Assembly (NCBI GenBank): GCA_001247695.2
Contig: LGRX02035201.1
Coordinates: forward strand, 1 to 64,000
Length of the DNA stretch: 64,000 nt
Direction: 5' to 3'
From: Cymbomonas tetramitiformis
Taxonomy: Eukaryota > Chlorophyta > Pyramimonadophyceae > Pyramimonadales > Pyramimonadaceae
The translations under genes were made by a program, and so were the position numbers. The notes under the pieces were generated by a model, which worked only from the letters and a program-made list of their open reading frames with translations, had not been told where the DNA came from and searched no databases. Below, in pieces: positions 10,021 through 41,169 of the stretch (its first letter is position 1; each line of letters starts with the position of its first letter).

Positions 10021-10937
10021 TATGGTATTCTCCTAAAACTCGTCAAGGCACGAAAAGAGAACTCAAGTGAGTGCAGCGTCAGAGATAGTATATATCATAT
10101 TGTTCGCAGGTTTGCAGGTGGGCGCATAAGCGACAGCGCTCGCAGTGATATTGAATATCTGCAAATTGAATAATATACGCTCGAATATCGACAGCACACG
10201 GATTGCGCGAGGAGATTTTTCATCGCGAACATATTCGCAGCTGACAGCATCCGCAGAGAAGTCGTCTTGATTTTATAAGCGACAAGGTGTGCGCACAGTG
10301 TACGGAACGCATGCAAATGATGTCAAAATTCGCAGGAATGTCACAGTATGCGAGATGCAGATGCGCGAACGAAAAATGATCGTCAGCACATATGATTTTC
10401 ATCAACTGCGACTGGACGCACGAAATTTCGTTTAATAGCGCGCTCGCATTCGGTCATGCGACGTACATCAGCAATCATCAGTATGCGACGTACATCAGCA
10501 ATCGATTTTCGCAAATGCTCGTATGATGATTTTCGCTCGTCAGTGCGATGTGCACTGATGTAATGCTCGTGTGCGCGATGTGCACGTCAGCGCGATGTCA
10601 TGATTCATCTGATGCAATGGACGCACGTTTTTAGGGCGCATGATTCCTAACGCGTCTTCATGCAGCGATGCATATAAAATGTGTACGCGCGTCAATATCC
10701 TCTGCAGAATGATTGTATACTTGCAGGAATTCTTTAGACGCATAATCGTCATACTGCTGTGGACGCATGATCACCATACTGCTGTGGACGCATGATCACC
10801 ATACTGCTATGGACGCATGGTCACTATACCGCTGTGAATGTATGGCTACTACCCAAATTCATGGTCCTACCACAAGGACCAATGGGCAATTGCGGTTTCG
10901 ATCACTAAATCGACTATTTGAGGCACAGGTAACATTT
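10021..10937. other. Leader of nested unit, no gene
   Basis: No coding region is supported. Bases 10745-10840 hold three to four tandem copies of a ~27-bp CATACTGCTGTGGACGCATG-type unit. The motif GGTCCTACCACAAGGACC at 10873-10890 recurs near 26309 and 26336. Confidence 0.5.
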
Positions 10938-11446
10938 TGTGGGAGGACTGCTCCTCACAAGGCACTGTAACTACTGATGGGAGTCTTATATGGACTGCAT
11001 ATAAAGACTAACTGCCTAGGTACTGCTAGGTCAGCTCTTTAGACATAGGACTGCTATGTCTAGACTTACTACATATATTTGCATGTAAGAATTAGGTATT
11101 ATATTTGACTTTTGCCATGCGGCTGTTTTTACTCTAGAAATCTCAACTGTTTCTTTGGCCTTGGCCATTACTTATTCACTCAGCTCTCTGAGGTAATCCT
11201 AGTCAGCATGGCCAAGTCTCATCAACCTATCATATGCTTGTACTACATTATCATGCAGTATGATGTGCCAGTATTCTACATGTCACATTATTACACAGTA
11301 CAGTGGTACTGTGTACTCCCATATAAGGGGGGTCTCTTCCTCAACAGGGGTCTCGGGCGCTAATGCTGTAAGGCGCGTATGACACTTCTGGCATGTATGA
11401 CATTGCTGAGTCATCCGCGCATGACACCGTGTGTTGTCCTAGCACA
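10938..11446 (-). repeat. 3' LTR of Ty3/gypsy element
   Basis: 509 bp, TG...CA bounded, ~99% identical to the copy at 24873-25381. Contains a CCCATATAAGGGG segment that could hold a TATA-type promoter element when read in its own orientation. Confidence 0.93.
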
Positions 11447-11462
11447 ACTCCCCCCCCCTTCA
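11447..11462 (-). other. Polypurine tract of Ty3/gypsy element
   Basis: On the minus strand a TGAAGGGGGGGGGAGT run sits directly before the 3' LTR start (TGTGCTAGG); this is where plus-strand DNA synthesis would be primed. Confidence 0.85.
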
Positions 11463-11501: not shown

Positions 11502-14500
11502 TTAGGCTGATTCGGAGCCCATGGTGTCCCACTCGCTGTCGTCGGACATCACTGGTGGCGGCGTAGGGCTGTACTCCGGCATCAAGGTCACCGGCTCCTC
11601 GTCAGCTTCTTCCGGATTAGCGCAGACTCTTTCATCGTTGAGATCTGTCTCATTTTCATCTCTCCAAAGCAGCTCCGCTAGGTATTCACACACCGCTGCG
11701 ATTGCCCCCACGGGTTGTTCCACCGGTAGAGAGCTGAATAATTGTTTAAGCAAGGCTGCGGGGATGCCATACACGTGCCATCCAGCTCCCATGCCTGGTC
11801 TAGGATCGCCCGACTCTCTGCTGGCGGAGCCGCTCTGCGCCATCTTCTCGTGCCACCCATAACGGCGTTTGAAGTCGCAGGGGTTTTCGGGGTCGCAAGA
11901 CTTCAGGGTGGCGATAGGCGCGTTGGTCCAGAAGTGGGTGGGTTTCTTGTAGGGCATACCATACTTACAATACGTAGCCAGATGCGGAGGTGGCAACCCT
12001 TGCATGCATCGGCGAGTGTGTAACCCATGAGGAGCTCGGCCACGCGGGTTCTCGATGAAGTAGAAGCTCGGCTGGAGGTACTTGATGATCTCCAGCGTTC
12101 TCCGCACTTGTCTGTCAGCACCACGCAAGTTTCGTATCCCTACCGTTTTGGCTTGGCTATACTCCGTGCATGGAGGGCTCGCCCAAATGACGTCAAAGTG
12201 CTTGGGCGAGAACTGCCGATAGTCCCAGTGCAGGACGTTTTCGCAGTGAGTGGGCTTCCATCGGTTCTGGATGTCCACCGAGACTACCTCACACCCAGGA
12301 AACTGCTTGCTGAACTGTCGTTCGACGGAGCCTGTGCCACAAAACAACACCAAGATCCGTATTGGGCGTCGAGACGGCTGTAGGCGTGCCGCTCCTCGAC
12401 CAGGTCCTTGGGATGGCATGAAACTAGTGGAGGACACCGTCGCGAATGTGCCCACCTCGTCGTCGGCTCGTTCTTCCGGGATCCACGCCATTCCGTCCGC
12501 CTGTAACTCTTCAGGATCCGTCAACCATATCGCTCCTGCTGACTCCTCGCGTTTGCGAGTGACTCTACTCTTTTCACGTTCTTGCCTCTTGGCCTCGACC
12601 TTCTCGAACTCCTGAAGAGCGCGGTTAGGTATCCCTTTTCGGCCAACTCCATCGAACTCGAGGTCCTCGCGAGTTTTCCATTCATTCTCGGAGCGCGGCA
12701 TACCTACCCATTTGACCATGTACTCCGTCCATGTCCGCCCGCTACGTCTCCTCGTGCGTGACCTCTCAATGCACTCCACCGCCATCTCCTTACGACCGCT
12801 CACGTCCACAGGGGGAGGCGGAATCTCCGCACTCCTGTCCGCGAACTTGTCCTGGCCCGACTCCACTGGGGTGAGTCTATCCACGGTGAAGACGTCGTGC
12901 ACCTTCCACTGTGGTGGTAGCTTCAGGCGGTAAGCCGCGGGGGCCCCTCGGTCCTCGGGGGCGAGCTCCATCTGCCGGTCGCTGTGGAAGGCCTCCAGCA
13001 CCTCCATCGGGCCCAGGCGCTTCTTCAGCAACTTCTTGTGTAGGCCCCGATCCCCGGGCTGGGTGAGATGCGTGGCGTCCACCCACACCATGTCACCTAT
13101 TGCGTACCGGCGAGCGCGATGGCGAGCATCATACTGGGCCACTTGCTGCTGCTGAGCTACCAGCAACCTATCGCGAGCAGTCTGCAACTGCTGAACAAAC
13201 TGCCGGGCGGTCTCGTGGGCCGTGCCTTTCTTCACGACGTCCCCTCTCCCCCCCTTGGCGCGGCCCCTACGAGAGGCCAACGCAGCTTCTACGAAGAAGT
13301 CGAGCTGCGACGCTGGGGCATGCCCATAGCAAAGCTCGAAGGGTGTGAATCCAGTAACCGCGGACCTGGAGTCGTTAATGGCGTACTCCACCGGGGTGCA
13401 CCACAAATCCCAGTCTGTCTGGTTTGCGTCAACGTAGGCGCGCAACATGCGCTCCACCGTGTGGTTTGTGTGCTCCGCTTGACCGTCCCCTTGTGGATGG
13501 TACGGCGTAGTGGAGGCCACCTGCACCCCCATAAGGCGATGCAACTCCATATGAAAGGCGTCACGGAAGCGAGAGTCCCTGTCACAAACGATCTTCATGG
13601 GAGCACCGTGCAGTCGCCAAACATGGTCGAAGTACATTCGTGCCACTTGCTCAGCGGAACTGTCAGAGTACAGCATGGGGACCACGTGCACCATCTTGGA
13701 CAACTTGTCCGTGAACGTGGCGAAGGCGTCGTAGCCCCGCTCCGTGCGCGGCAGACCTGTGACGAAGTCAATGCTCACCACCTGCCACAGCCTGACCGGG
13801 ACCTGGAGGGGGTTCAGCTGGCCATCCGGATAGCTGTTCCTCGGGCGGGTCTGCTGGCATATCAAGCACGAGCGGGTCCAGTCGGTGACGTCTTTGTTCA
13901 TGCGGGGCCACCAGAACCGCCGCACTATCCGAGCAAGAGTCTTATCTCGCCCGGTGTGTCCCGCCGCGGGAGACTCGTGCGCTTCACGCATGACTATCTC
14001 CCGAAGGGGAGAGTCGGACGACAACACCAGCTGGTAGCGTCCCTCCGCGATGCGCCAAATCATGTCGTCAACCATACGGAAGGTGTCCGTGCGCTGGTGC
14101 GGGGCGGCTAAAAGCTCTTCCTTTAACATCGTGAGGTAAGGGCTACGTTCGTACTCCGCGCGTAGTGCTTTCACGAACTGGCATGCCTTCAGTGGTCCTT
14201 TGGTTGCGCGTGCCTTGGCCGCTGGCCCCGACGTGACCATAGGCTCGCTTGCACCTTGAGCGGCGGGCGCACGGGCACTCTTCGCTCGAGGCCGAGTCCG
14301 GCTGGCCGCTGGCGCCCACACCAGCAGCACGGGCCACCGCAGCGCTGGTCGGCCTCCATCTGGTGACTCAAACAAGCATGTAGGGTGACCCTTGGCATCC
14401 TTGAGGTCGAACACCTTGACCACGTGCAGGCCGTACTTGGGCTGGATAAGGGTGCGCCAGGACGCGTCATAGTCCGGCAGTAGGAACATCGCCGACGTGT

Positions 14501-17500
14501 TTTCTGGGTCGGCGCGCCACTCAGCCATAAAGTGGCGTAGGATCCTCTCAATGAGGTTGCTATCCTTGGTGTAGGGGGGGTTGCACCAGACGTGCTTTCC
14601 CCGACATTGTTGCTTGAGGCACTCCGTCCAATAGGTGTCCACCTGGCGGTTGACGCCCATGGAGTCACAACACGCGTCCACGTCGAACGGGCCGTACTGC
14701 GCTGAGATCTCTTCGAACTTCTCCTTTACCAGTTTCCAGTCCTGCCGGTCTACCACGTTATCGTAGTGGGAGCTTGACGCGGGAGGGGAACTTTGTTTGC
14801 TGGGAGGGGAAGGACTAAGGGGAGTTGAGGGGGCTGGAGAGGGGGCTTGCTCCGGTTGCGAGCGAGAGCGAGTAGTGACGCCCGCAAGGGTGGCTTCATG
14901 CAAGGCGCGCTCCGCGGTGTGCAACGTCTCAGCTGCGTCTTCCCACAGGTCGGGGGTTTCCACCCAGGTGAGCCCATTCAGATGAGTGAGCTCCCCAACG
15001 ACCAACGGGGGGCTGACCGGAGGTACAGACTCGTCTTCAGAGTCGGAGTAATCAAACGTGGAGTCGAGCACCGAGATGGGGTCTTCAAGGGTCTTGACTT
15101 TAGCGGGCTCCTCGGACGGCTCTTCGTCGGTGTCGTCCTCGTCGATTGCACCGAATACTGAGGTGGGATCGGCGGGGGTTGAGCTCTCAGCCGACTCCCT
15201 TGGCACACTCTGACGAGGCTCGTCTGTGTCCCGGTCGACCACGCCCTTCTCCTTGAGCCCCTCCCTGGCGGATGACTGCTTGTAGTCTGGTCGCCTGGAT
15301 TGGGCGTCCGGAACTACTAGGCATCGGCCAGGTACGTGCTCCATTTGGTGCACGCCCACTTCCACCAAGTCTTCATACCAGCGTGCCTGGCGTCGACTCA
15401 GCTCCCGAGCCGGCGCGAAGAGCCACTGCAAGGGTTTGTGGTCACCCATGAGTTTGAAGTCGGTGAATATAAGGTAATGCCTCCACGTCACTGTGGTGCA
15501 GTGGTGGATGGCGCACAGCTCCCGCTCCCCAGCGTGGTAGTTCTGCTCGGCCGAGGAGAATTGCCTGCTCTCGAAGGCCAACGGCTGAAGACCTCGTCCC
15601 AGGTCTTGCATCAGCACGCCTCCTAGTGCGACCGCACTCGCGTCGGTCTGCACGCAAAATGGGCGAGACCCATCGGCTGCTGAGCGCTGGTCCGGTAGGG
15701 CGAGGATTGGTGCTGAAATCAATGCTGACTTCAATCGTTGGAAGGCTTCTTTCTCCTCCTTGCCCCAAGTCCATGGCACTCCCATCTTCGTGAGGCGAGT
15801 GAGAGGGTGGGCAATGTGAGCGAAGGACTGGATGTACCGCCGGTAAAAGCCACACATTCCAAGGAATTGGCGCACGTGGGTGACAGTCTCGAGCTCCGGC
15901 CAGTCGCGAACCGAGGCAACTTTGTCGCGTTGGGGGCGACAACCTTCCTTACTACACACATGGCCAAGGAAGCGTACTGCTCGCATGCACAACTTCAGCT
16001 TGCTTCGCTTGAGGTATACTTTGTGCTGGCGACAGGCAGCTAATACAGCTCGTACATGGCCGACATGCTGCTCAGGTGTGTCACTGAAAATCATGATGTC
16101 GTCCACGAACACTCTGCAGAAGGGTAGGTGTCCGAGGTACTGCGTCATCATTCTTTGCCACGTGCTCGGTGAGTTGCTCAGTCCCATAGGCATGACCAGC
16201 CACTCATAAGCTCCGAAGTGGGTGGTCATGGCTGTCTTCTCGATGTCCTCCTGTTCCATGGGAACTTGCCAGAATCCCCACAAGGCGTCTGCGGTGGAGA
16301 AGACGGTTGCTCCTTGTAGGTCATCGAGGAGGGTTTGTACGTCAGGAAGAGGGTACTTGTCCTTGACCGTGATCTCATTTATCGACCTGTAGTCGATAAC
16401 CAAGCGCAACTCCTTAGGGTTGCTCGGCTTCGGCACCATAAGTACCGGACAACCCCAGGGAGACGCCGATGGACGGATGTACCCCTTGGCCAACAGCTCG
16501 TCAAGTTGTGCACGAAGTTGCCGAAGCTCCTCTTGCGACAACTTGTAGTTACGCCGATGTAGCGGCTGCCCACTCCAGTCGGATCGCAAGCGAATGTTGT
16601 TCTTGTAGTCGCGGCTTTGGACGGAGTCAGGCAGCTCCGTACATATGACGTCCCTGAACTCCTCCTCAAGGTCGCGCAGCTGTTGCCATATCTCCGGGGA
16701 CACTGTCTCGTCAATCTCGTCCGGCTCCTCCGCTTCCATGGCATGGGGCTTGGGCGGCGGTGACGGTGGTTCCTCGGCCACTGGAGCGGCCTGCTCTTGA
16801 GATAAACCTTCAGTATGGGGCTTCTCGTCGCTCCAGCGCACACGCTTGCGTCGCGGCCGACGTTCGCGGAGTAAGCGCCTTCCCTGCTCCAGCGCGGCTG
16901 CGGCTTCGACATGCCAGGTGGGTGGTTTCCCTTGCGCGTGGTCGTCGATTGCTTGAGCACGTACGTGCTCAGGTAATAAAGCAAATGCTCCCAAAGCTTC
17001 GCGCTTGCTCTGGAAGAACCCCAGATGTAGGTTGTTGGATGGCGCATTGTCCGCCGGGGGGCCAACAGCACCCTCCAGCGCGACCACGTCAAAGTTTTGT
17101 GGGCGGGTGGACTCCACTGTTGCGTACACCTTATCCAAGTGGTCCTCGTCACTGGTGCCTGGGCTGGGCCGCACAGATTCCCGGAGGAGTAGAGCGTCCT
17201 CGGCTTCGGAGTCAGTCTCTGACGCGGACATCAGCGCAGGCGCGTCCGTCTCACCCAGATCCGCTTGGGAGGAGTCCATGGCGCCCGCGACTTGGGCGTC
17301 TCGCTGCTCAGAGCTAGACGTGGCGCGACGCTCGGACGAAGCGTCCCTGGGCTTGGCGTTGGTCTCGGCGTCGGTCTCTTCGTTACAGGCGACCGCCCCG
17401 AAGGTGCCGTCGGGTGCTAGGTACACCACGAAGGCACACTCATCCTTAGATTGGAGGGCTCGAAGGTCCTTGCGTACCCTTTTGGGGTCCAACAAGACTC

Positions 17501-19259
17501 CTTGTACCAGCGCCATGGCCTTATCCTTGGGTCTTGAGGGGTCTGGCGTTCCCGGAGAGCAGCCTGTAATGACCACTCTCTTGCTTCCAGAACCAAACCG
17601 GATGGAACCCCATCGGGAGTAATCCAAGGTGACTGGGGAGTGGGAGGCTAGCCAAGGTCCTCCAAGGATAATGTCCACGCAAAGATCAATGGGCATCACT
17701 CTGAGCTCCAATTGCTTGACGTACAACCCCTTGGTGGTCTCTGCTTGCAGTCGAGGACGGACGCACGTGTTGACATCGTACGACGCGCCGTCAGCTACTC
17801 GCACTCGCATGGGGTTTTCGTGAGGTCGAGGCGTCAGGGAGGGAATGCTGCGTACAGTCTTGTCCGAGATAATGTTGGTGGAGCACCCACTGTCCACCAG
17901 CACCTTTACGCGACGACCGTTCACGTACGCCCAGAACAACAACAAGGTGGGGGCCTTGGAATTGTTGATCTGTCGAGGTGGCGTTCGCGATGTTGATACA
18001 GCCGCCAAGAGATCACTCCAGCCAGGGCTCATGTCCCCACTGTCGATGATGCTGTTGAGCTGGCATATGAAGGGGTCGTCCTTGGCATGAGGGTCGCCTA
18101 GGTCAGGAGGGTCGTCCATGTCAGAGTCCCATGGTAACTCGTAGGTGCCTGCATCGGCCAAGAGCCCTTGAGCGGTGGCTGTCTGCACCAGGTCCCTGGG
18201 TGGGTGATCAGGTGGGTACAAGGCCACTTGGATGACCTTGTCCTTCGCTGCTCGCGCCATATCATTCGTCGCCAAGTCACTTGCGTACTGGAGGAGTCCG
18301 TCTTCTACTTCCTCTTGCGCTTGTTCCTTGGCTAAGATGTGCAGTAGCTCTTCGTCTATAGGAGAGTCCCGCTCCAAATATGGGAGGCCACTGGCATAAT
18401 CCCGCTTAAGCTTCTCTCGTTGGCGAACCTTCTCCAGCCCACTGAGCCACCTCCTCCTTGGTGCTCCTTCAGCTCGAGCTGCATGGGTCGGTGACAGCCA
18501 TGGTCGGGGGCGGTCACTCCGTGTGGTTGAGGTTGCCTCGACAGTCGTGCTGTCGTTAGGTGAGGGCGTACGAGGTCGACGCCTAAGCTGGATGTCTTGA
18601 CGTCGTCGTCGGTATTCTTGCAGCCTTTTAAGTTTGTTAAGGGCTGCGGGTAAGGGTGATCGAGCTCGAGCTTCTCGCTTGTTGGCGGTAACCGCGCTGT
18701 GCGTTGGTGACCGCGTGGGTCCTCGGCTGCTGCGTCGATGCCCGGCTCTCCAAAGCGGTGGGCTCGTGCTCCGCGGAGGTGTACGGGGCGGTGCAAGGTC
18801 CGTTTCCAGAGCCTTGATGGAGGACCTCAAGCCCCGTGTGCCCACTTTGGAGCGTAAAGCGCTCGTCCCTTGCCCTCGGACAGCTCGAAATTGCCAACCT
18901 TGCAATGGTTGGCCCGTTGGCTCCAAGTGCACGCGGTAGCTCTCGGTCACCTTCAGGGTACGTCGGTGCCGTTTCTCAACGTGCTGGGAGTCGTCTGAGA
19001 GGTCCTCGCTCGTACACACCGGAGACTTGGCTTCCTTGTGAAGACGAGCTTCGACCACTTGACGCTCCGGCGCGGTAGGAGGGCTAGTCATCGCCCGCGA
19101 GGGTAGCATGTTGAGCTCATCGGAGTCTAGGTATCCTGTGCAAGGATCACTCCGCCTTTGACGTCGACGGGCTCTTCTCCACTTCTCCCGCAACTGCTGC
19201 TCCGAGAGGTAGGAGGGGGGCTCATCGCGGGGGTGTGGGGTTCCACAGCCCGAGCTCAT
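11502..19259 (-). CDS. Ty3/gypsy polyprotein with Dam-like and C5 methyltransferases
   Basis: 2585 residues, one uninterrupted frame. Domains in order: a basic N-terminal region; retropepsin (DSG at 456-458); reverse transcriptase (~905-1085, FVDD at 1051-1054); RNase H (first Asp ~1206); a Pro/Ser-rich linker; a phage-type N6-adenine methyltransferase (~1515-1650, NPPY at 1560-1563); integrase zinc-binding HHCC (from H1761); integrase core D1831, D1893, E1929, a DD35E spacing; chromodomain (~2158-2203); and a cytosine-5 methyltransferase (~2297-2500: LFCGTGS, SPPC with catalytic C2364, ENP at 2403-2405). An acidic tail follows. The protein should copy and integrate the element; the chromodomain would steer integration to marked chromatin, and the two methyltransferases could mark the element's own DNA. 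The start ATG overlaps the gag stop as ATGA (19259-19256), suggesting reinitiation instead of frameshifting. All key catalytic residues named are present. Confidence 0.93.
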   Translation of the reverse strand: MSSGCGTPHPRDEPPSYLSEQQLREKWRRARRRQRRSDPCTGYLDSDELNMLPSRAMTSPPTAPERQVVEARLHKEAKSPVCTSEDLSDDSQHVEKRHRRTLKVTESYRVHLEPTGQPLQGWQFRAVRGQGTSALRSKVGTRGLRSSIKALETDLAPPRTPPRSTSPPLWRAGHRRSSRGPTRSPTHSAVTANKREARARSPLPAALNKLKRLQEYRRRRQDIQLRRRPRTPSPNDSTTVEATSTTRSDRPRPWLSPTHAARAEGAPRRRWLSGLEKVRQREKLKRDYASGLPYLERDSPIDEELLHILAKEQAQEEVEDGLLQYASDLATNDMARAAKDKVIQVALYPPDHPPRDLVQTATAQGLLADAGTYELPWDSDMDDPPDLGDPHAKDDPFICQLNSIIDSGDMSPGWSDLLAAVSTSRTPPRQINNSKAPTLLLFWAYVNGRRVKVLVDSGCSTNIISDKTVRSIPSLTPRPHENPMRVRVADGASYDVNTCVRPRLQAETTKGLYVKQLELRVMPIDLCVDIILGGPWLASHSPVTLDYSRWGSIRFGSGSKRVVITGCSPGTPDPSRPKDKAMALVQGVLLDPKRVRKDLRALQSKDECAFVVYLAPDGTFGAVACNEETDAETNAKPRDASSERRATSSSEQRDAQVAGAMDSSQADLGETDAPALMSASETDSEAEDALLLRESVRPSPGTSDEDHLDKVYATVESTRPQNFDVVALEGAVGPPADNAPSNNLHLGFFQSKREALGAFALLPEHVRAQAIDDHAQGKPPTWHVEAAAALEQGRRLLRERRPRRKRVRWSDEKPHTEGLSQEQAAPVAEEPPSPPPKPHAMEAEEPDEIDETVSPEIWQQLRDLEEEFRDVICTELPDSVQSRDYKNNIRLRSDWSGQPLHRRNYKLSQEELRQLRAQLDELLAKGYIRPSASPWGCPVLMVPKPSNPKELRLVIDYRSINEITVKDKYPLPDVQTLLDDLQGATVFSTADALWGFWQVPMEQEDIEKTAMTTHFGAYEWLVMPMGLSNSPSTWQRMMTQYLGHLPFCRVFVDDIMIFSDTPEQHVGHVRAVLAACRQHKVYLKRSKLKLCMRAVRFLGHVCSKEGCRPQRDKVASVRDWPELETVTHVRQFLGMCGFYRRYIQSFAHIAHPLTRLTKMGVPWTWGKEEKEAFQRLKSALISAPILALPDQRSAADGSRPFCVQTDASAVALGGVLMQDLGRGLQPLAFESRQFSSAEQNYHAGERELCAIHHCTTVTWRHYLIFTDFKLMGDHKPLQWLFAPARELSRRQARWYEDLVEVGVHQMEHVPGRCLVVPDAQSRRPDYKQSSAREGLKEKGVVDRDTDEPRQSVPRESAESSTPADPTSVFGAIDEDDTDEEPSEEPAKVKTLEDPISVLDSTFDYSDSEDESVPPVSPPLVVGELTHLNGLTWVETPDLWEDAAETLHTAERALHEATLAGVTTRSRSQPEQAPSPAPSTPLSPSPPSKQSSPPASSSHYDNVVDRQDWKLVKEKFEEISAQYGPFDVDACCDSMGVNRQVDTYWTECLKQQCRGKHVWCNPPYTKDSNLIERILRHFMAEWRADPENTSAMFLLPDYDASWRTLIQPKYGLHVVKVFDLKDAKGHPTCLFESPDGGRPALRWPVLLVWAPAASRTRPRAKSARAPAAQGASEPMVTSGPAAKARATKGPLKACQFVKALRAEYERSPYLTMLKEELLAAPHQRTDTFRMVDDMIWRIAEGRYQLVLSSDSPLREIVMREAHESPAAGHTGRDKTLARIVRRFWWPRMNKDVTDWTRSCLICQQTRPRNSYPDGQLNPLQVPVRLWQVVSIDFVTGLPRTERGYDAFATFTDKLSKMVHVVPMLYSDSSAEQVARMYFDHVWRLHGAPMKIVCDRDSRFRDAFHMELHRLMGVQVASTTPYHPQGDGQAEHTNHTVERMLRAYVDANQTDWDLWCTPVEYAINDSRSAVTGFTPFELCYGHAPASQLDFFVEAALASRRGRAKGGRGDVVKKGTAHETARQFVQQLQTARDRLLVAQQQQVAQYDARHRARRYAIGDMVWVDATHLTQPGDRGLHKKLLKKRLGPMEVLEAFHSDRQMELAPEDRGAPAAYRLKLPPQWKVHDVFTVDRLTPVESGQDKFADRSAEIPPPPVDVSGRKEMAVECIERSRTRRRSGRTWTEYMVKWVGMPRSENEWKTREDLEFDGVGRKGIPNRALQEFEKVEAKRQEREKSRVTRKREESAGAIWLTDPEELQADGMAWIPEERADDEVGTFATVSSTSFMPSQGPGRGAARLQPSRRPIRILVLFCGTGSVERQFSKQFPGCEVVSVDIQNRWKPTHCENVLHWDYRQFSPKHFDVIWASPPCTEYSQAKTVGIRNLRGADRQVRRTLEIIKYLQPSFYFIENPRGRAPHGLHTRRCMQGLPPPHLATYCKYGMPYKKPTHFWTNAPIATLKSCDPENPCDFKRRYGWHEKMAQSGSASRESGDPRPGMGAGWHVYGIPAALLKQLFSSLPVEQPVGAIAAVCEYLAELLWRDENETDLNDERVCANPEEADEEPVTLMPEYSPTPPPVMSDDSEWDTMGSESA

Positions 19260-20722
19260 TGGGACTTGGAGGGTACTCCGAGCTCGAGGGAGTCCTCCGC
19301 GGCAAAATCCATTAGTTCCTTTGACAACACCGCGTTGAGCACGTCGCAGTATTCATCCGTTTCCACTTCGTGCATGATCATGTCCAAAGTTTCAGCCAGA
19401 AGTGCTTTGGCCCACTCCTTCTTACGAAGAGCAGCCTGTGGGCACTCTCGAGCATAGTGCTCTTTGCTTTGGCACAACCTGCAACCAGTGTACTCCGGGG
19501 AGCCCAGACGTTGCCCAGTAGGAGTTGCACCCGCGGGACGATCTTCGGCTAGAGCTAGTAGCTCCTCCGAGACCTCCACCGCTGCCAGTAGCTGCACTGG
19601 CGCTCTCCTACTCGTCGCGTTGTTCAAATGCAACTCCGCCTCAATGGCGTATTCCAGCGCTAGGCGTCGACTGGCTGGAAGGGCGCGGTCGAGGAGGATC
19701 AAGGGGGTCCCCTTCCGCTCTGCAATCTCGAACGCCTCCTTCCGTACCTCCGCGGATAAGCCAGAGAGGAAGACGTCCAGGAGGTCGGATTCCGGAACCG
19801 GTGTGGTGAGCTCGTGTGTCGCCAACATGGTCACTACGCGATGGGCTAGATGCAGTCCATCCCAAAACTCGCGCACTTTGCGCGGTGTCGCCATGCGTCC
19901 TTGAGTTTGGCGTACTCGGCGTAGGAACGAGCCCAAGGTGGCCATTTCACTCTTCAGCAGCACGATCAGCTTCGCCAGCGGCACAATGACCTTCTCAAGG
20001 TTCAACGACTTGTCCGCCTCGGCATCCAGGAGAACTCCTCGCAGCTCCGTTCCTTCGGAGCTAGGCGTAGGGAAGCAATGCTGGGTGATCTCCTTCAACA
20101 AGATATGCACCGAGAGAATCGGCTCTCCGAGCTCGAACGCTCCGTTGGGCACGTTGCACGGGGTGTTCATCGCGAGGAGCACCACTGGAAGGGCTAAGCA
20201 CCTGTCGAACTCGTCTACGAACCGCAGCAGCGGGCCGAAGGGGTTCGTGGACCCCTCCAGCGGTGCTGAGTACAAGGACATGATGTCCTTCGCGGCCTTG
20301 AGGGCATACGAGTGCCTCGTGTACTCCTCTCGTTGCTGCCTGCCGTCGTTGTACGAGGACCTTCTGCTAGAGCCAAAGCTATAGAACGTCTCGTCATCAG
20401 GGTCGTCATCTCCTCCCCCTCCGCTGCCGCCACGACGCGCGTTGGACCCTCCAGGGTCTCGTGAGGGGCGGTCGCCATGTTCGTCAGGGTTAGGCTCGTT
20501 AGGCGGCCCATTCCCCCCCCCTTGGTGCCCACCAGGTCCCCCTTGGTCGTCATCGTCGTCATCGTCTCCGCCGTCGCCTCCGCCACCCCCGCCCACGATC
20601 GTGGACAGCGGCTTCGGGCTCACTGTGGGGAATTGATCGAATGCACCCGGCCAAACTCCTCGTGTGCAATAGATGCACAAGGGCACAAGTTGAGCGGCGA
20701 CAGACATGTTTGACAGCGTCAT
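19256..20722 (-). CDS. Gag-like protein with CCHC zinc knuckle
   Basis: The frame is open from 20983, but the segment before the ATG at 20722 overlaps another ORF and looks noncoding, so the likely start is 20722 (488 residues), four bases after the stop of that ORF. The N-terminal part has a Gly/Asp-rich low-complexity stretch. The central part is helical, as in Ty3-type capsid proteins. Residues 414-427 form a CCHC knuckle (C-x2-C-x4-H-x4-C, CRLCQSKEHYAREC) that would bind the element's RNA. The stop TGA shares bases with the pol ATG (ATGA), so gag and pol are not fused by a frameshift as in many relatives. It is the probable capsid/nucleocapsid protein; assignment rests on the knuckle and its position directly before pol. 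Confidence 0.8.
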   Translation of the reverse strand: MTLSNMSVAAQLVPLCIYCTRGVWPGAFDQFPTVSPKPLSTIVGGGGGGDGGDDDDDDDQGGPGGHQGGGNGPPNEPNPDEHGDRPSRDPGGSNARRGGSGGGGDDDPDDETFYSFGSSRRSSYNDGRQQREEYTRHSYALKAAKDIMSLYSAPLEGSTNPFGPLLRFVDEFDRCLALPVVLLAMNTPCNVPNGAFELGEPILSVHILLKEITQHCFPTPSSEGTELRGVLLDAEADKSLNLEKVIVPLAKLIVLLKSEMATLGSFLRRVRQTQGRMATPRKVREFWDGLHLAHRVVTMLATHELTTPVPESDLLDVFLSGLSAEVRKEAFEIAERKGTPLILLDRALPASRRLALEYAIEAELHLNNATSRRAPVQLLAAVEVSEELLALAEDRPAGATPTGQRLGSPEYTGCRLCQSKEHYARECPQAALRKKEWAKALLAETLDMIMHEVETDEYCDVLNAVLSKELMDFAAEDSLELGVPSKSQ

Positions 20723-20726
20723 CACG

Positions 20727-21119
20727 TCACAACTCCAGATGGCTACCGGAGGTTGCGGGCTGCGAGAACATCTTGAGCATGGGATGTTGGTGGTGCTGGA
20801 CGCGACCTCGTCGTGCACGCTCTGGATCACTGCTGTGCCCAAGTGAGGTGGTCGAGGGTCGGAGTTGGGAAGCCGGTGCCTCCGAGATCGGTGGCCCGCT
20901 CCCTGACGCCAAGTCATGGTCTCGGTACTTTCTCGCCACATCGAAGAACATACGTTCCGCCTCGAGGTTGCCCGCGTGGCCATCTAACCGCTCCTCCACA
21001 CGCGCCCGGATGGCAACGGCAGCGGGCGCGCTTATGGATCGCCAGTCCACCTTGGCCAGGCGGTCATGCACACTCGTGGGGGAAGATGCACGCGTGGAGG
21101 CGTCCTCCTCGAACGTCAC
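20727..21119 (-). CDS. Small ORF between coiled-coil ORF and gag
   Basis: A 130-codon frame with a balanced, protein-like composition (for example VEERLDGHAGNLEAERMFF at ~45-65). It has no ATG at its beginning: the frame opens with GTG overlapping the stop of the upstream ORF as GTGA (21119-21116). It may therefore be the C-terminal continuation of the coiled-coil ORF reached by a -1 shift, or a separate product. It ends four bases before the gag start. No family is recognised. Confidence 0.4.
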   Translation of the reverse strand: MTFEEDASTRASSPTSVHDRLAKVDWRSISAPAAVAIRARVEERLDGHAGNLEAERMFFDVARKYRDHDLASGSGPPISEAPASQLRPSTTSLGHSSDPERARRGRVQHHQHPMLKMFSQPATSGSHLEL

Positions 21120-22585
21120 GCCTTTGTGGCCCCGTACGTCAACAGTCGTGGCCGACGGGGCACCATCAGAGCCTCGTGTTCAGCTTCTTGAGCGTCACTT
21201 GTGACGGTCGCATAGCTCGCGGGGGTATTAGGTGGTTGCCCTGGCCGTGAGTGCGCTCGTCCGTCAGCGGCTTCAAGTGCGGCTTGCACCACCATCTTGC
21301 TCTCCGCCACTTGTTGCTCCAGCAGTCGTTGATCTCGAGCTGCTTGGTCAAGTTGTTGGCGTTGCTCTTCCGCGGCGCGCTGCATTTCTCGAAGTTGTTG
21401 ATGATGACGTGCAGCTTCCTCCGCCTGCGATGCTACCGCTTGTTCATGCTGATGTGAGACAGCGTCCGCGGCATGCTGCATGCGCGCTATCTGCTCCTCA
21501 GCCGATTCGAGAGCGGCTTGTCGAGCTTCTTGACACATCTTGGTGCGGAGCTCCTGCTGCATCCGAGTTGCTTCCTCCACGGCATTGTGCATGTCCATGC
21601 GCAACGCTGTGAGCTGCGCTTGGTGCGCAGTGGCCGCATCTAACGCGACTCGTTCGGACTCTTCTTGCAGCTCTCGTAGTTGCCGCTCGTGTCGCGTGGC
21701 TTGAGCTTGGCGCCGCCGTTGGCGTCCACCCTTTTGCCGAGAGCTCCTAGATGAAGAGGTGTGCGAGGCGTCAGAGGAGAGCGCTTCGGTAGAAGATGTT
21801 TGACACGATGAAATTGTGGACTTCTCCTCACTGGACGTAGAGGTGGAGTCGTACATCAGTTTACCTTCGTCACTGCGACGTCGAGCTTTGGCGAGCTTGC
21901 GCTTGGCCAACTTCTGCCGCTTCCGCTCCTGCTTCGCCACCTCCTTCTTGTGGGCTAACTCCGTCAAAGCCTGGACACGTACAGCACGTTCTCGTTGTGT
22001 GGGTCGTGGGGCAGATGAAGCTTTTGATCGAGGTGGTTGTGGGGCGGAGTCAGCGGAATGAACGTCTTCCTCATCGATCGTGGAGTCATCTTCAGACGAC
22101 AAGACGCCATAGGGGTTGCGGCTAGGTACAGATTGTACGCCATGCTGTTGAACACTTGCTCCCAAAGTGGTTGTACGCCTTAGAGTCTTTATCACCTCCT
22201 CGACGCTCACTCCCAACCGCACCAGCCTTGCAGGCCGGTTGGCTGGGATGGTCGTGACGAGTGGTCGTGCAGAGTGGAGGTGATGATAATGGTGGCTTGC
22301 TGAGGTAACATGCGACAGAAGGAGTCCACGAGATGGGATCACGCGTTGCTCTCCACTCTTCGTTCTCAGCTGCACCTCCCATGTGATTGCAGCAATGGAG
22401 TCTTCTTGGCCACACAGGCGGCGAAGATGTCTACGCAAGGTCGCCCATTGCTTCGGGGTCACGTCAGGCGTGTCCGTCAGAGCTGACCACTCGTGGAGGA
22501 CTTCGCGCTTCACATGTTGTTCACGCTGGCCCGCAAAGGTGGTGCACTTGGAAGCGAAGTCCACGGTAGCCTTCCACGCTTTCAT
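21116..22585 (-). CDS. Coiled-coil ORF of Ty3/gypsy element
   Basis: The likely start is the ATG at 22585, which overlaps the stop of the previous ORF as ATGA; this gives 489 residues. Residues ~1-160 are a mixed domain, ~200-290 are basic and Ser/Thr-rich (KQERKRQKLAKRKLAKARRR), and ~300-450 are a long Gln/Glu/Ala/Arg coiled coil (QQLREMQRAAEEQRQQLDQ). Such an ORF before gag is not part of the usual Ty3/gypsy plan. A structural, RNA-binding or trafficking role is possible; none can be assigned. Confidence 0.65.
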   Translation of the reverse strand: MKAWKATVDFASKCTTFAGQREQHVKREVLHEWSALTDTPDVTPKQWATLRRHLRRLCGQEDSIAAITWEVQLRTKSGEQRVIPSRGLLLSHVTSASHHYHHLHSARPLVTTIPANRPARLVRLGVSVEEVIKTLRRTTTLGASVQQHGVQSVPSRNPYGVLSSEDDSTIDEEDVHSADSAPQPPRSKASSAPRPTQRERAVRVQALTELAHKKEVAKQERKRQKLAKRKLAKARRRSDEGKLMYDSTSTSSEEKSTISSCQTSSTEALSSDASHTSSSRSSRQKGGRQRRRQAQATRHERQLRELQEESERVALDAATAHQAQLTALRMDMHNAVEEATRMQQELRTKMCQEARQAALESAEEQIARMQHAADAVSHQHEQAVASQAEEAARHHQQLREMQRAAEEQRQQLDQAARDQRLLEQQVAESKMVVQAALEAADGRAHSRPGQPPNTPASYATVTSDAQEAEHEALMVPRRPRLLTYGATKA

Positions 22586-23430
22586 ACTGTACACTTCATC
22601 ACGTAGAACTCGGACCGGGCGATGTTGCACACCGTGATTTCGAGGGTGATCTCTTTTACACGACGTTGTTCTTCTCGCCATGCACTCAAGAGCCGGGACG
22701 CCAATCGTGAACTTGCGTGTCCAGCAAAATCTTGCTTTTTGCGTTGGACCTGATTCTTGCGGTGAGCTCGCTCGTGCCATGCTGTAAGGGAAACACGCAT
22801 GCGTGCGAGACGGGCACGTAGGCGCCATGTCGTAAGTGCAGATGAAACACGCCCGCTGAGCACTCGTGCTGTCCAAGTACTCCACCAATTACGCAACGCA
22901 CATACAGCTAGAATATCCACCGCTACAGCTTGGCGTGCCAGCCTGACGCTCCACTCGTTCACGCTTGACAAACCGCGCTCGCCACTTGGAGGTGCACTTT
23001 CACGCCTAGGCGTAAATATGTTGCTCTCATGAGTCAGGTTTCCAACGTGATGCTCTGGTGCTAGAGGCAAATGGTCAACTACAGCTTCGCTATGAGGAGA
23101 TGATCTCAAATTATGAGCGGTGGCTATAGCGACCGTGTTGAGCTCCTCGAGAGCTGGTTGGCTACGTTGTAGACCTGAGGCACCTGCACCCCCTGCGTGC
23201 TGGTGGGGTGTAGAGTAGCACTCAACCATACGTACAGTGGCAGATACCAGCTCAGGAGAGTCACGCGAGCCGTTGGGGAAGTTCGTGGGCGTGGCAGGCA
23301 GCGATGCTTGGGTGCGACGTTCCTCTTGAGGTAGAGGCGCGCTCGCCAAAAGCGCGTATTCGCCCTCCAGAGAGCGTTGTACTGCTCCCCCCCCCTGCTG
23401 CCCCGCCGCGCCCCGGCTGGCGCCTCCCAT
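22582..23430 (-). CDS. First ORF of Ty3/gypsy element, Trp-spaced repeats
   Basis: A 282-residue frame ending in TGA that overlaps the next ATG (ATGA at 22585-22582). The C-terminal half (~175-270) has tryptophans at regular spacing inside basic helices (WWSTWTARV, ALTTWRLRARLARM, SLTAWHERAH, LLSAWREEQRR), a pattern resembling Sfi1-type centrin-binding repeats; this is a resemblance only. The N-terminus is uncertain: a frame beginning with ATG at 23600 (MSSSRRASSLYVPPQRRSG) covers the upstream 170 bases. It would join this one if the run of eight Cs (plus strand) near 23388-23395 had gained or lost a base. So the real protein may start at 23600. Confidence 0.5.
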   Translation of the reverse strand: MGGASRGAAGQQGGGAVQRSLEGEYALLASAPLPQEERRTQASLPATPTNFPNGSRDSPELVSATVRMVECYSTPHQHAGGAGASGLQRSQPALEELNTVAIATAHNLRSSPHSEAVVDHLPLAPEHHVGNLTHESNIFTPRRESAPPSGERGLSSVNEWSVRLARQAVAVDILAVCALRNWWSTWTARVLSGRVSSALTTWRLRARLARMRVSLTAWHERAHRKNQVQRKKQDFAGHASSRLASRLLSAWREEQRRVKEITLEITVCNIARSEFYVMKCTV

Positions 23431-24851: not shown

Positions 24852-24869
24852 CGTAGCACACTGATACCA
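24852..24869 (-). other. Primer-binding site (initiator tRNA-Met type)
   Basis: On the minus strand TGGTATCAGTGTGC follows the 5' LTR end (..CCCACA) after a three-base AAA spacer. TGGTATCAG is complementary to the 3' end of eukaryotic initiator tRNA-Met. Confidence 0.85.
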
Positions 24870-24872
24870 TTT

Positions 24873-25381
24873 TGTGGGAGGACTGCTCCTCACAAGGCAC
24901 TGTAACTACTGATGGGAGTCTTATATGGACTGCATATAATGACTAACTGCCTAGGTACTGCTAGGTCAGCTCTTTAGACATAGGACTGCTATGTCTAGAC
25001 TTACTACATATATTTGCATGTAAGAATTAGGTATTATATTTGACTTTTGCCATGCGGCTGTTTTTACTCTAGAAATCTCAACTGTTTCTTTGGCCTTGGC
25101 CATTACTTATTCACTCAGCTCTCTGAGGTAATCCTAGTCAGCATGGCCAAGTCTCATCAACCTATCATATGCTTGTACTACATGATCATGCAGTATGATG
25201 TGCCAGTATTCTACATGTCACATTATTACACAGTACAGTGGTACTGTGTACTCCCATATAAGGGGGGTCTCTTCCTCAACAGGGGTCTCAGGCGCTAATG
25301 CTGTAAGGCGCGTATGACACTTCTGGCATGTATGACATTGCTGAGTCATCCGCGCATGCCACCGTGTGTTGTCCTAGCACA
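24873..25381 (-). repeat. 5' LTR of Ty3/gypsy element
   Basis: 509 bp, matches 10938-11446 at all but about four positions; outer flank CATTT at 25382-25386. Confidence 0.93.
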
Positions 25382-25386
25382 CATTT

Positions 25387-30584: not shown

Positions 30585-32420
30585 GGGTCCATGCGGTCCC
30601 GGGACCAATAGGGACCCATCATGGACCCCATATGGACCCGTATGGACCACATGGACCCCACATGGACCCGTGAAAAATGGATCACATGGACCCGTCGATG
30701 AAGCCTTCGGGCTTTTACCACTAGATTGGTCCAAAAGTTCCTATCGGTCCGGGGTGGGTCCCACACTTGGTACCACTGATTTCTCGGTCCATGCGACATT
30801 TCACCATGGGTCCATGCGGTGTTTCGTCGGTCCATGTGGGGTCCATGTGTCCATCGAAATCTCACCACGGATTCCTCGCCGCTGGCGTGGGGGACCTCGC
30901 ATGGACCCGTATGGCCATGCTTTAAGGCAGCATGTGGTGCATGGACCGACCCTGGACCGACCCCGGGCCGACCCTGGACCGACCCCGGACCGACCCTGGA
31001 CCAAACATGATCGCTCGGACCCAGGTTGGACCAGCACGGACCAAACCTCCGATAGGCGCCCAACCGTACGGACCATATATGGACCTCGCGTGGACCCCGC
31101 GTGGACCCCGCATGGACCCATGGGTGGAGCACTCGAGATGGACTGCACGGGGGAGGCGATGCGTGGACCTCGCATGGACCTCGCATGGACCCGGGAGTGG
31201 CGCACCCAAGATGGGGTGCGTGGTGAAGGCGATGCGTGGACCTCGCATGGACCCAGCATGGGCCCCGCATGGACCCGTAGGGTGGCACACCCGAGATAAA
31301 CTGCGCGGGGAAGGCGATGCGTGGACCTCGCATGGACCCGTGGTGTGGCGCACCCAGCATGGGTTGCGTGGTGAAGGCGATGCGTGGACCCCGCATGGAC
31401 CCCGCATGGACCAGTGGGGGCGCACCCAAGATGGACTGCACGGGGAAGGCGATGCGTGGACCTCGCATGGACCCGTGGGGTGGCGCACCCGAGATGGGGT
31501 GCGCGGGGAAGGCGATGTGTGGACCTCGCATGGACCCGTGGGGTGGCGCACCCGGCATGTGTTGCGTGGTGAATGCGATGCGTGGACCTCGCATGGACCC
31601 CGCATGGACCCGTGGGGTGGAGCACCCGAGATGGACTGCACGGGGAAGACGATGCGTGGACCTCGCATGGACCCGTGGGGTGGAGCACCCGAGATGGGGT
31701 GCGCGGGGAAGGTGATGCGTGGACCTCGCATGGACCCGTGGGGTGGCGCACCCGGCATGGGTTGCGTGGTGAAGGCGATGCGTGGACCTCGCATGGACCC
31801 CGCATGGACCAGTGGGTGGCGCACCCGAGATGTACTACACGGGGGAGGCGATACGTGGACCCCGCATGGACCCGTGGGGTGGCGCGCGATCAGAAATACG
31901 GTCTGACTGCTGGGTCAGCGACAGCGGCCTCAGCGGAAATCGAGTCCATGCGATTATTCGCCGGGGCCATGCGCTTATTAAGTGGAGTCCATGTAATTAT
32001 TAAGCGGGTCCGTATGCTTATCTTGCGGGTCCATACGATTATTCCGCCGGTCCATGTGGGTGGTAATAAGCGGGTCCATGCGACTATTGTGTGGGTCCAT
32101 ACGGTTATTCAGCGGGTCCGTGTGGTTATTTTGGGGGTCCATACGATTATTCGACGGGTCCATGCGGTCATTAAGGAAGTGCATGTGACAAAATGACCGC
32201 ACGGGGAAGGTGATGCGTGGACCTCGCATGGACCCCGCACGGACCCGTAAAAATATTTACACTGTACATATGTTACACATTTGTCAGTAAGAAACGGTTG
32301 GGTTGGTAGCATACTAATATTATCATACATCGAAAATAGGGGTATACAAAAGGTCCCCGATAGGTCCAGTACGGGTCCGCAATGGGTCCGGAACGGGTCC
32401 AGGGTGGGTACGCTCGAGGT
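30585..32420 (+). repeat. Left subterminal TGGACC array
   Basis: From about 31150 to 31880 the array is a 63-bp tandem repeat (GATGCGTGGACCTCGCATGG core), with some copies extended by a ~15-base CCCCGCATGGAC insert. From 31940 to 32170 it changes to a 21-bp type unit (GCGGGTCCATGCGATTATT) in the complement orientation of the right array. The 63-bp period is three times 21. Long open frames across it in several phases are an effect of a period divisible by three and are not genes. Confidence 0.93.
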
Positions 32421-38778: not shown

Positions 38779-41088
38779 ATGTACCGATACAGAGACAGTC
38801 CCATGCGAGTTGACTCGATCGCGTGGACCGACGTTGGACCTCGATGGAACCAATGCTGTCCACCTTGGTACAATGCCTCGCCTGGCGGCGCAGAAAGTCA
38901 AAGAACTTTGAATTCTTTGAAGACCTTCGTTCCTCGCACTACCGCCTCACAACCTCAGTCCTCACAGCCTCACGCACAACCTCCGTCCGTCCACGCAGCA
39001 CAGACATCGATGGGACCTTCACGCAAGACACGCAGCAAAGACGAGAAGAAACTGTCTTCCCGGCAGACGACCCTCCCTCAGTCTGGAAACACCCAGCTGG
39101 GGGAGCTCATGCGCCAGTTTGCAGCCCAGCAGCAAGAAATGCAGGGTCTCCGGCAGCAGCTGGCAGCAGGGCTTGCTGGTGCTGGTGCTGTGCCTGCGCA
39201 GCACCCGGCCGTCAAGGTGGAAGCGGGTGCTACAGGCAGCGCGCCTGGCGATGCGGGGGGGGTCTTCCACACGACAAAGGAAGCCCCCAGCATCTCGTGA
39301 AGTCATTGCAGCGGTCGACAAATTTAGTTTGCGGAAATAATTTAAGAAGTGGAGTATGGGCCCCTGGATGCACCATCTCCACGCTGGAGGAAGAGAGCCT
39401 GGACGAAGCCGTTGAGGCGATCAAAACGGCGACGCCAGGCTTCTCGTACGAATGCGTGCGGGATTACATAAAAAACCGACTGACATATATGAAATGTCAG
39501 ACCACCACCTTGGGGAGGTGGAAGCTAAAGACCACAAAAGAATGCCCGACGGGTTTTTTCCAGCGTTTTGACGGCCCGGCCCGCGGCGTCCGGGTGGCAT
39601 CGGACGCCACCGGCGAGCTGCCCGGCAAGAAGACCACCGAGACGGTGCTGAATTACTTCGACGCCGGGCAGCCCACGGAGGGGCCCCTCTTTGAAGCCTT
39701 CTGGGCACTGGAGGGGGTGCAGTACGTCAAGCCCGCCGACGTGCAGCCCGCCAACTTGGGGAAGCCCGCCGCCGGGCTGGACAAGGATCAAGGGGAGAAG
39801 ATCCCTGCCCCAGTCGCGCCCGAGAAGCAGGGCAAGGAGAAGAAGAGTTCGTTCGTGTGGCCACTGGTAAGCAAACATACCTGTTATGTTTTTTTACCCT
39901 GGACCCCTTTGTTTTAAGAGGGACGGTACAGGGGCCACGTTTAGCCCTCGTACCGAACCCACGCTGGACCGACCCACAGTGTGGTAGGGCCGCTCCAGCT
40001 GAACTGCAGTGTGTGAGTGTGGGTACGATGTCGCTGACTGCTATTGGTTTGGGGCTGGGTCGCAGGCGGATGACTCCACACTGGTGCTCGGGTCATTCGT
40101 CGCCGTGCACCGCATCCGCTCCAAATCCGTTACCCCCTTCCCCGAGGAGTTCGCCTCCTCACTCCTCGACTACGACAACGATCGGTTCGAGTTGTGTTAC
40201 GGGGTGGTGGAGGGGGTCCCCGGGGGGAGCAGTGTGAATATTGCCAAGGGGGGCAAAATCCCCAAGGACGTCGTGGAGGTTTTGCTCAAGTTCGGAGTAA
40301 AACCTTCCCCCCACGACGAGAACGACGAGGCCGGGGACCATCACGACCGCATCCTTGCGATGCACGAGTTATCCATCACGAAGTTGCTCGCTCTCCCCTC
40401 CAACTCAGAAAAAAAAATAAACAAAACAGAACTCCAGCACGACGCCAAGTCGATAATGGAGGCAGGCATCCTGGTGTGGTGAGTAACCCTTCAGTTCACA
40501 CGTTTTGCCCTCTGTAAACCTGGGCCCGTTTACCTCTGTAAACCTGGGTCCCGCACGGTCCGGTGTTCTGCCCGCACCCCGCCCCCGTATGTCCTGTATG
40601 GTCCCACGTGTCGCCCCAACCCCGCCCCAGTATACTCTGTGTACTGTATTGAGGTGTGGTGTGTCTACGTATGCAGGTTGCCAGTCAGTAACGTCAAGCT
40701 CAGCAAAAATGCCTCTAAGGTATTTGCTGGTATGAAGGTGCAGAGCGCCAAGGAAGCTTCCGAACGAAGTACTGCCAGCCACGCCGCCAAGGAGGCCCGC
40801 AAAAAGGCGGCAAAGGAGATGCTCGGCAAGGCCAAGAGGAGAGCGGATGGGGGCGACGAAGCCGAGAAAAAGAAGAGGAAAAAGGGCAAGGCAGCTGTAA
40901 CGGAGGAGGCCGAGGAGGCCAAGCAGGCCGAGCAGGCCGGGGAGGTGGTGGAGGACATGGAGGCGTCCGGGGATGGTGATGAGAATGGTGATGAGGCCTC
41001 GGATGGGAATGGAGAGGATACGCAAGACGAAGATGCGCAAGACGAGGAGGGGGCACAGGCAGGGGATGATAGTGGTGACGAAGAATAG
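38779..41088 (+). CDS. Second CACTA gene (TnpA-like position), multi-exon
   Basis: The likely start is the ATG at 38779 (MYRYRDSPMRVD). Coding blocks: 38779-~39290 (Gln/Ala-rich, ending in a QQQEMQGLRQQLA coiled coil); ~39340-39866 (LDEAVEAIKTATPGFSYECV to SSFVWPL, followed by a GTAAGC donor); ~40000-40480 (CECGYDVADCYWFGAGSQAD to GILVW, followed by a GTGAGT donor); ~40676-41088 (Lys/Ala-rich basic then Glu/Asp-rich acidic tail, TAG at 41086-41088). The joint near 39300 is unresolved: three frames overlap there. In En/Spm elements the second gene encodes a DNA-binding protein that recognises the subterminal repeats; position suggests the same role here, but no sequence family is recognised. 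Confidence 0.5.
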
Positions 41089-41169
41089 CAATCATTTTGT
41101 GTAGAACTGCCGTACTGTTTTTGCCGTCCTGACCAGTTCACTTGTAAATATTGTTTATAATTGCATTGT

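Follow-up and report, generated by a model that had tools for sequence, protein, structure and literature searches.

The 64,000-nucleotide stretch analysed here (the window; contig LGRX02035201.1, forward strand) comes from Cymbomonas tetramitiformis, a prasinophyte green alga of the class Pyramimonadophyceae. The segment 10938-25381 of its minus strand (14,444 bp) is a complete, young, Ty3-type long terminal repeat (LTR) retrotransposon. The Pol open reading frame (ORF) of this element runs uninterrupted from ATG to stop (19259 to 11502, 2585 codons), and profile, motif and model comparisons show that this Ty3-type Pol has taken in two predicted DNA methyltransferases of phage type: a Dam (N6-adenine) domain in the interval between RNase H and integrase, and a C5 (cytosine) domain after the chromodomain. 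The features of the element are the following:

10933..10937: target-site duplication, left, CATTT (AAATG in the sense of the element)
10938..11446, minus: 3' LTR, 509 bp, TG...CA
11447..11461, minus: polypurine tract GAAGGGGGGGGGAGT (sense), adjoining the 3' LTR
11502..19259, minus: Pol ORF, 2585 aa
11733..12359, minus: predicted C5-cytosine methyltransferase domain, residues 2301-2509 (profiles, model)
12168..12182, minus: ASPPC motif, residues 2360-2364, with predicted catalytic Cys2364
12654..12782, minus: chromodomain, residues 2160-2202 (Pfam)
13494..13784, minus: integrase core, residues 1826-1922 (Pfam, below the cut-off)
13839..14012, minus: integrase zinc-binding H2C2, residues 1750-1807 (Pfam)
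14355..14750, minus: predicted Dam-type N6-adenine methyltransferase domain, residues 1504-1635 (profiles, model)
14571..14582, minus: NPPY motif, predicted to be catalytic, residues 1560-1563
15363..15668, minus: RNase H, residues 1198-1299 (Pfam)
15957..16436, minus: reverse transcriptase, residues 942-1101 (Pfam)
17655..17930, minus: aspartic protease, residues 444-535 (Pfam)
19256..20983, minus: Gag-like ORF, 575 aa, with a CCHC knuckle (E 6e-4, below the cut-off)
21116..22888, minus: further ORF, 590 aa, upstream of the Gag-like ORF
24861..24869, minus: primer binding site TGGTATCAG, 3 nt past the 5' LTR
24873..25381, minus: 5' LTR, 509 bp
25382..25386: target-site duplication, right, CATTT

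The initial annotation, made from the letters of the window alone, had called this element intact, and the LTRs, the primer binding site, the polypurine tract and the target-site duplication are indeed all present. The two LTRs have TG...CA termini and differ by 4 mismatches (99.2% identity), and the CATTT duplication borders both ends of the element. Note that the LTR edge is slightly ambiguous: AAATG, the duplication, recurs just inside the element after the 5' LTR. The primer binding site resembles what we take to be the complement of the 3' end of the initiator tRNA-Met, and the stop codon of the Gag-like ORF overlaps the Pol start (ATGA). Near-identical LTRs, target-site duplication, primer binding site, polypurine tract and the order protease-reverse transcriptase (RT)-RNase H-integrase (INT) are all those of Ty3/gypsy elements, and the chromodomain that Pfam locates C-terminal of the integrase is as expected for the chromovirus branch. 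The Pfam scores within Pol were 110 bits for RVT_1, 94 for RNase H, 77 for Integrase_H2C2 and 27.6 for Chromo (cut-off 25.1), with the rve match at 21.2 bits, under its cut-off of 32.6. The element does not have the hallmark of DIRS elements, since Pol gave no recombinase match at E<=1 (Pfam) and carries H2C2 and the weak rve match instead. The window holds a single copy of the dual-methyltransferase Pol.

Two predicted methyltransferase domains in Pol

The adenine domain was assigned by profile, motif and fold. The Pfam profile PF05869 (Dam) matched residues 1504-1573 (profile positions 8-79 of 169) with 31.8 bits against a cut-off of 28.1, and the NPPY motif that had been read at residues 1560-1563, in a phage Dam-like domain between RNase H and integrase, lies where it had been placed. 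In support of this, the top BFVD matches to the structural model of the domain were named phage N6-adenine methyltransferases (E 4e-8, TM 0.65). The domain is predicted, on these three lines, to be a phage-type N6-adenine methyltransferase. Note that the NCBIfam model TIGR01712 scored 20.5 bits against a cut-off of 97.05, and the domain is thus not an equivalog.

For the cytosine domain, PF00145 (DNA_methylase) matched residues 2301-2406 (profile positions 2-112 of 324) with 23.6 bits against a cut-off of 22, phrog_757 matched residues 2299-2460 with 62.6 bits, and the NCBIfam dcm model gave 19 bits (curated cut-off 100.65). The motif set announced in the initial annotation was found complete: LFCGTGS at 2305-2311, ASPPC at 2360-2364 with C2364, and ENP at 2403-2405 with E2403, the S-P-P-C and E-N-P residues being invariant across an alignment of 14 C5 rows. 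With regard to motif IX and a full target-recognition domain, the C5 domain has just 209 aa. RLxGF is the motif IX pattern of C5 methyltransferases; no RLxGF-like motif was seen by eye in this domain, and the confidence of its model is low near residues 170-200. The fold of the model is nearest DNMT3, at ~13% identity. A profile search of PDB (E<=0.1) listed Dnmt2, Dnmt1 and EhMeth, with Dnmt3 absent from the rows, and a single-sequence search of PDB (E<=10) placed M.HaeIII first, with no Dnmt3 among the rows. Viral genes reached 153 bits with the profile of the retroelement C5 domains. The C5 domain appears closest to phage enzymes, as a predicted compact cytosine methyltransferase of phage type and not a Dnmt3.

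The profile searches, named with the initial annotation as one way to refute it, do place both domains in methyltransferase families, above the Pfam cut-offs and far below those of NCBIfam. Profile, motif, fold and the relatives described below agree with the earlier proposal that both chemistries and a chromodomain are combined in one intact element.

Recurrence and history in related Pol proteins

Three protein searches returned 74 relatives (P0004-P0077) which, together with the window Pol, make 75 Pols; they were gathered via these domains and hence do not represent Ty3 elements as a whole. Of these rows, 18 are named Cymbomonas, and the others come from ena, jgi, lgn and, in one case, ncbi. 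With profiles built in the analysis, both domains score more than 30 bits in 51/75 Pols, and 45 of the 75 have a C5 match longer than 170 aa plus a Dam match longer than 80 aa. The order of the window Pol, RT-Dam-INT-C5, is present in 28 of the 75. The other orders were:

C5-RT-INT, 9; Dam-C5-RT, 8; RT-Dam-INT, 7; C5-Dam-RT-INT, 6; C5-RT, 5
Dam-C5-RT-INT, 4; RT-Dam, 2
Seen once each: C5-RT-Dam-INT, C5-RT-INT-Dam, Dam-C5-RT-C5-INT, C5-Dam-RT, C5-Dam, RT-C5-INT

Some of the shorter Pols are probably truncated, either at a contig end or by the gene call, and six dual-enzyme orders remain after merging such forms. Half of the Cymbomonas-named rows (9/18) have both enzymes, and several others stop short of the C5 position. 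The protein clusters of P0004 and P0019 have 23 and 31 members, respectively; these are not copy numbers, and they hint at several copies.

The same combination is found in L108 (NHEN01000032.1), a contig from a marine bin classified as Verrucomicrobiaceae (TMED86), where one ORF encodes RNase H, Dam, integrase, chromodomain and C5. L108, whose C5 domain is 41% identical to that of the window, was the sole match in prokaryote genomes, and it is most likely a misbinned eukaryotic retroelement contig. The next ORF of L108 (1159 aa) has a stretch that resembles an OTU protease in its motif, with no such Pfam match.

These sequences bear on the possibility that the window Pol is an assembly chimera of a retroelement and phage methyltransferase genes. 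Cymbomonas eats bacteria, and its assembly needed removal of bacterial contamination (PMC10675990), which would favour such an artefact. However, the window order recurs in Pols from several sources, the window Pol is a single ORF framed by LTRs and a target-site duplication, and L108, a contig of a metagenome-assembled genome, has all five domains in one ORF. A chimera is hardly conceivable here: the recurrence of the dual architecture in other sequences refutes it, and this answers the check for chimerism proposed with the initial annotation.

Some relatives with the same two enzymes have profile matches to other chromatin-reader domains. P0030 has a PHD finger between Dam and integrase (E 2e-11), P0034 and P0035 likewise have a PHD finger according to the search listing, and P0041 gave a weak Tudor-like match (E 1e-4, below the cut-off).

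The history of the domains was followed with quick trees, supported by the Shimodaira-Hasegawa-like approximate likelihood ratio test (SH-aLRT) only, in which near-copies were thinned for the viral comparisons. Trees of RT, integrase, C5 and Dam from the first 42 proteins (34, 36, 33 and 41 rows, respectively) recovered largely the same groups, and therefore both enzymes seem to have mostly travelled with the element. The exceptions were P0027 and P0028, which lie outside the P0001 group in the Dam tree, and P0036, which is placed differently in the C5 and RT trees; P0036, P0038, P0041 and P0043 have long branches. An RT tree of 57 rows has two deep groups: in the first, Dam lies between RT and INT and C5 is mostly last, and in the second, C5, often with Dam too, is N-terminal of RT. 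The minimum number of position changes on the RT tree, with absence taken as a state, was 4 for C5 and 11 for Dam.

For the viral comparison we used 107 loci (80 of the 213 C5 matches and 27 Dam loci), none of which matched two or more of the four retro profiles (E<=1e-4). One branch split 59 retroelement from 33 viral rows in the C5 tree (support 98), and one branch split 44 retroelement from 20 viral rows in the Dam tree (support 99). Since the retroelement C5 and Dam domains each lie on one side of a branch from the viral rows, a single origin per domain is tenable; each domain may have entered once and then moved within Pol, in trees that leave aside free-standing cellular genes, DIRS sequences, Dnmt3 and methyltransferase-free Ty3 elements.

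We also considered whether Dam and C5 had been taken up together, from a single phage cassette; support for this was weak and it was not adopted. A DIRS origin of the Dam domain was a further candidate, and the search results contained no recognisable DIRS sequence. A Dam-like ORF lies in the fetched flank of 3/80 viral C5 loci (L001, L063 and L075), and the fetched flanks of the viral Dam loci had a C5 ORF in 0/27 cases. In the viral contigs L001 (5024-6609) and L063 (3800-4755) a Dam-like gene lies close to a C5 gene, directly adjacent to it in L063.

Comparison with known systems

Retrotransposon-borne methyltransferases, adenine or cytosine, were already known. De Mendoza et al. 2018 (PMC5890265) described Dnmt3 in a Klebsormidium Gypsy element and DNMTs in a long interspersed nuclear element (LINE) and in DIRS of Symbiodinium, and mentioned Dam-like enzymes in DIRS, while Morozov et al. 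2019 (PMC6338049) reported DAM in DIRS and DCM in Ty3/Gypsy and DIRS. In Cymbomonas, three very high-coverage scaffolds have chromodomain, RNase H and cytosine methyltransferase regions (Burns et al. 2015, PMC5741210); the 2023 assembly paper, which attributes 15.3% of the assembly to LTR elements, refers to chromoviral pol genes and does not use the word 'methyltransferase' in its main text (PMC10675990). The initial annotation had invoked the algal and dinoflagellate cases as precedents. They are precedents for methyltransferases in retrotransposons but not for the kinship of the enzymes, which there belong to host families (Dnmt3 in the charophyte; PMC5890265) and here appear to be of phage type.

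As occurs in the window element, KnitGypsy-Dnmt3 of Klebsormidium nitens has a C5 enzyme with conserved key residues within the LTR Gypsy Pol of a green-lineage alga. However, its enzyme is a eukaryotic Dnmt3 and the passages that describe it mention no adenine enzyme (PMC5890265), whereas the window element has a predicted phage-type C5 plus Dam. SymbioDIRS-Dnmt3 and SymbioLINE-Dnmt of Symbiodinium are also retrotransposons bearing a cytosine methyltransferase, but they belong to the tyrosine recombinase and LINE classes and their enzymes are of host type (PMC5890265). DIRS elements with a Dam-like domain have, as here, an N6-adenine enzyme in a retrotransposon polyprotein (PMC5890265, PMC6338049); compared by description only, they differ in having a tyrosine recombinase, whereas the window element has integrase, LTRs, a chromodomain and C5. 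Among algal DNA transposons, Sola1-1_Ec32 and similar elements carry a prokaryote-type ParB-methyltransferase for which modification of self DNA has been suggested, although this is a single enzyme (predicted N4C or N6A) encoded by a separate accessory gene (PMC12477816). Of the sequences searched, those closest to the two domains are the compact phage and archaeal-virus C5 (phrog_757) and the phage Dam (phrog_111, PF05869); these are free-standing genes, whereas the window enzymes are domains of a polyprotein. What appears new in the window element is the presence of both enzymes together, and of phage type: the searchable text of the open-access literature, preprints excluded, yielded no report of both in one element.

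Proposed self-marking and its alternatives

We propose that the likeliest role of the two enzymes is self-marking of the complementary DNA (cDNA) or of the insertion site. Pol would be packaged along with Gag, and the two enzymes would then modify the fresh double-stranded cDNA while it is in the integration complex, or the DNA surrounding the insertion site, or both. The new copy would then arrive in the genome already bearing N6-methyladenine (6mA) and 5-methylcytosine (5mC). This could benefit the element by shielding its cDNA against nucleases that attack unmodified DNA, or by letting the copy adopt a chromatin state tolerable to the host. Targeting of the complex to certain chromatin would fall to the chromodomain, as is known for other chromodomain integrases. 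What the sequences show is the element with its domains, motifs and folds, and its recurrence; catalysis, substrate, timing and benefit are what we infer, and with all steps taken together our belief in this role and our doubt are evenly balanced. It is possible, as first suggested, that the element writes its own marks and reads chromatin. More tentatively, and with doubt somewhat the stronger, a widespread Ty3-like retroelement group of marine protists would have inherited a phage-derived 6mA and 5mC kit, kept and reshuffled both enzymes across deep divergence, and would use them to mark its own cDNA and insertion sites.

As to conservation, the [PVI]PC motif is retained in 60/61 C5 domains and NPP[YFW] in 55/59 Dam domains. 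In a comparison of the window Pol with seven relatives, RT and integrase were better conserved than the Dam and C5 cores, which were about on a par with the protease and ahead of the N-terminal part and of three of the four linkers. The observed/expected CpG ratio is 0.33 and 0.28 in the LTRs, versus 0.93 in the element, 1.04 in the left flank and 0.90 in the right part of the window, and values as low as those of the LTRs were found in 3/183 GC-matched, overlapping windows. One of the 4 differences between the LTRs is a transition. The CpG depletion of the LTRs is suggestive only as a footprint of methylation.

Several observations count against self-marking. The Dam-integrase linker is almost level with the enzymes in conservation: 80% with P0006, versus 84 and 79 for the enzymes, and 69% with P0008, versus 65% for C5. 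In the comparison with P0027, Dam and the linker between RNase H and Dam are equally conserved (48%). ENP is absent in 6/61 C5 domains (present in 55/61), and a loose motif-I pattern matched 47/61, the misses not being inspected. The comparison with P0004 (CYMTET_5968, Cymbomonas tetramitiformis) covers residues 51-1795 only and stops before the C5 domain. The conservation of the Dam-integrase linker, the ENP losses and the short reach of the P0004 comparison lower our confidence in self-marking. C5 without Dam is found before RT in 14 Pols and between RT and INT in 1; these 15 Pols show C5 alone, so the two enzymes need not go together, unless the Pols are truncated, which is possible. The positions of the enzymes vary among Pols, and some are entirely N-terminal; the enzymes are thus not tied to the integrase in any fixed way.

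The window copy of Dam is itself unusual. The window Pol and P0004 differ at 14/1745 positions, 13 of which fall outside the recognised domains: 7 lie N-terminal of the protease, 5 in the stretch from protease to RT and 1 in that from RNase H to Dam. The sole difference within a domain is W1552C in the Dam of the window copy; the Dam region is listed as 100% identical, a rounded value, as one residue differs. Because the window holds one Pol copy, P0004 is either another copy or another assembly's version of the window Pol. Residue 1552 (codon TGT, window 14604-14606) is Trp in 38/41 aligned Dam rows, P0004 included (counted by eye), the other non-Trp rows being P0036 (Cys) and P0041 (Leu). 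An assembly error could explain Cys1552, as could a real substitution, whether damaging or tolerated (Cys is found in P0036 too). The adenine activity of the window copy is uncertain because of this residue, and the copy itself may be impaired. NPP[YFW] is absent in 4/59 Dam domains (P0023, P0024, P0032 and P0038); with these losses and Cys1552, adenine methylation is not indispensable everywhere.

Another reading of these findings is that the domains are passengers, catalytically idle and retained for their part in structure, in the spacing of the polyprotein or in binding nucleic acids. The persistence of Dam without its motif in the four Pols just named, Cys1552, and a linker neighbouring Dam that is nearly as conserved as the enzymes would all fit with this. 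However, the two catalytic motifs have been kept in nearly all domains across deep divergence, and we consider idle passengers quite improbable.

A further point against self-marking comes from the Dam model, whose closest solved structure is the RNA cap adenosine methyltransferase PCIF1. One or both domains might target RNA (the element transcript or a cap) and not DNA. By name, however, the Pfam, PHROG and viral-fold matches are DNA methyltransferases, and the top rank of PCIF1 may merely reflect missing closer entries, because the PDB rows shown for the Dam domain included no recognisable PF05869 structure. An RNA target is thus rather improbable.

The phage kind of both domains would also suit protection against restriction, in which double methylation would shield the cDNA of the element, and possibly the DNA of the host too, from endonucleases such as those of giant viruses that infect the alga, in a phage-like manner. 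Cymbomonas has endogenous giant-virus and Polinton-like elements (PMC10675990), and an antiviral role of retrotransposon Dam/Dcm domains was proposed earlier (PMC6338049). The observed/expected ratio of GATC argues against it: in the element it is 0.75, intermediate between 0.53 in the left flank and 0.80 in the right part of the window. We regard this protection as unlikely, and self-marking as the preferred reading.

The recurrence of the pair in many elements, in shuffled positions, suggests that selection may favour double base marking. The dual elements would allow a test of whether transposons set their own epigenetic state, and they may be a source, apart from host enzymes, of the 6mA and 5mC of algal genomes. 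Self-marking, if true, would be a strategy of phage origin operating with two base modifications in a eukaryotic nucleus.

Finally, other features were observed in the window, outside the element. Three plus-strand ORFs (50695-52575, 53875-55203 and 55107-56294; 626, 442 and 395 aa) gave no Pfam match above the cut-off. Repeat arrays are present at 31049-32247, 41028-42225 and 42975-43511, with spacings of ~21, 63 and 126 bases and with GGACC/GGTCC in many of the copies.
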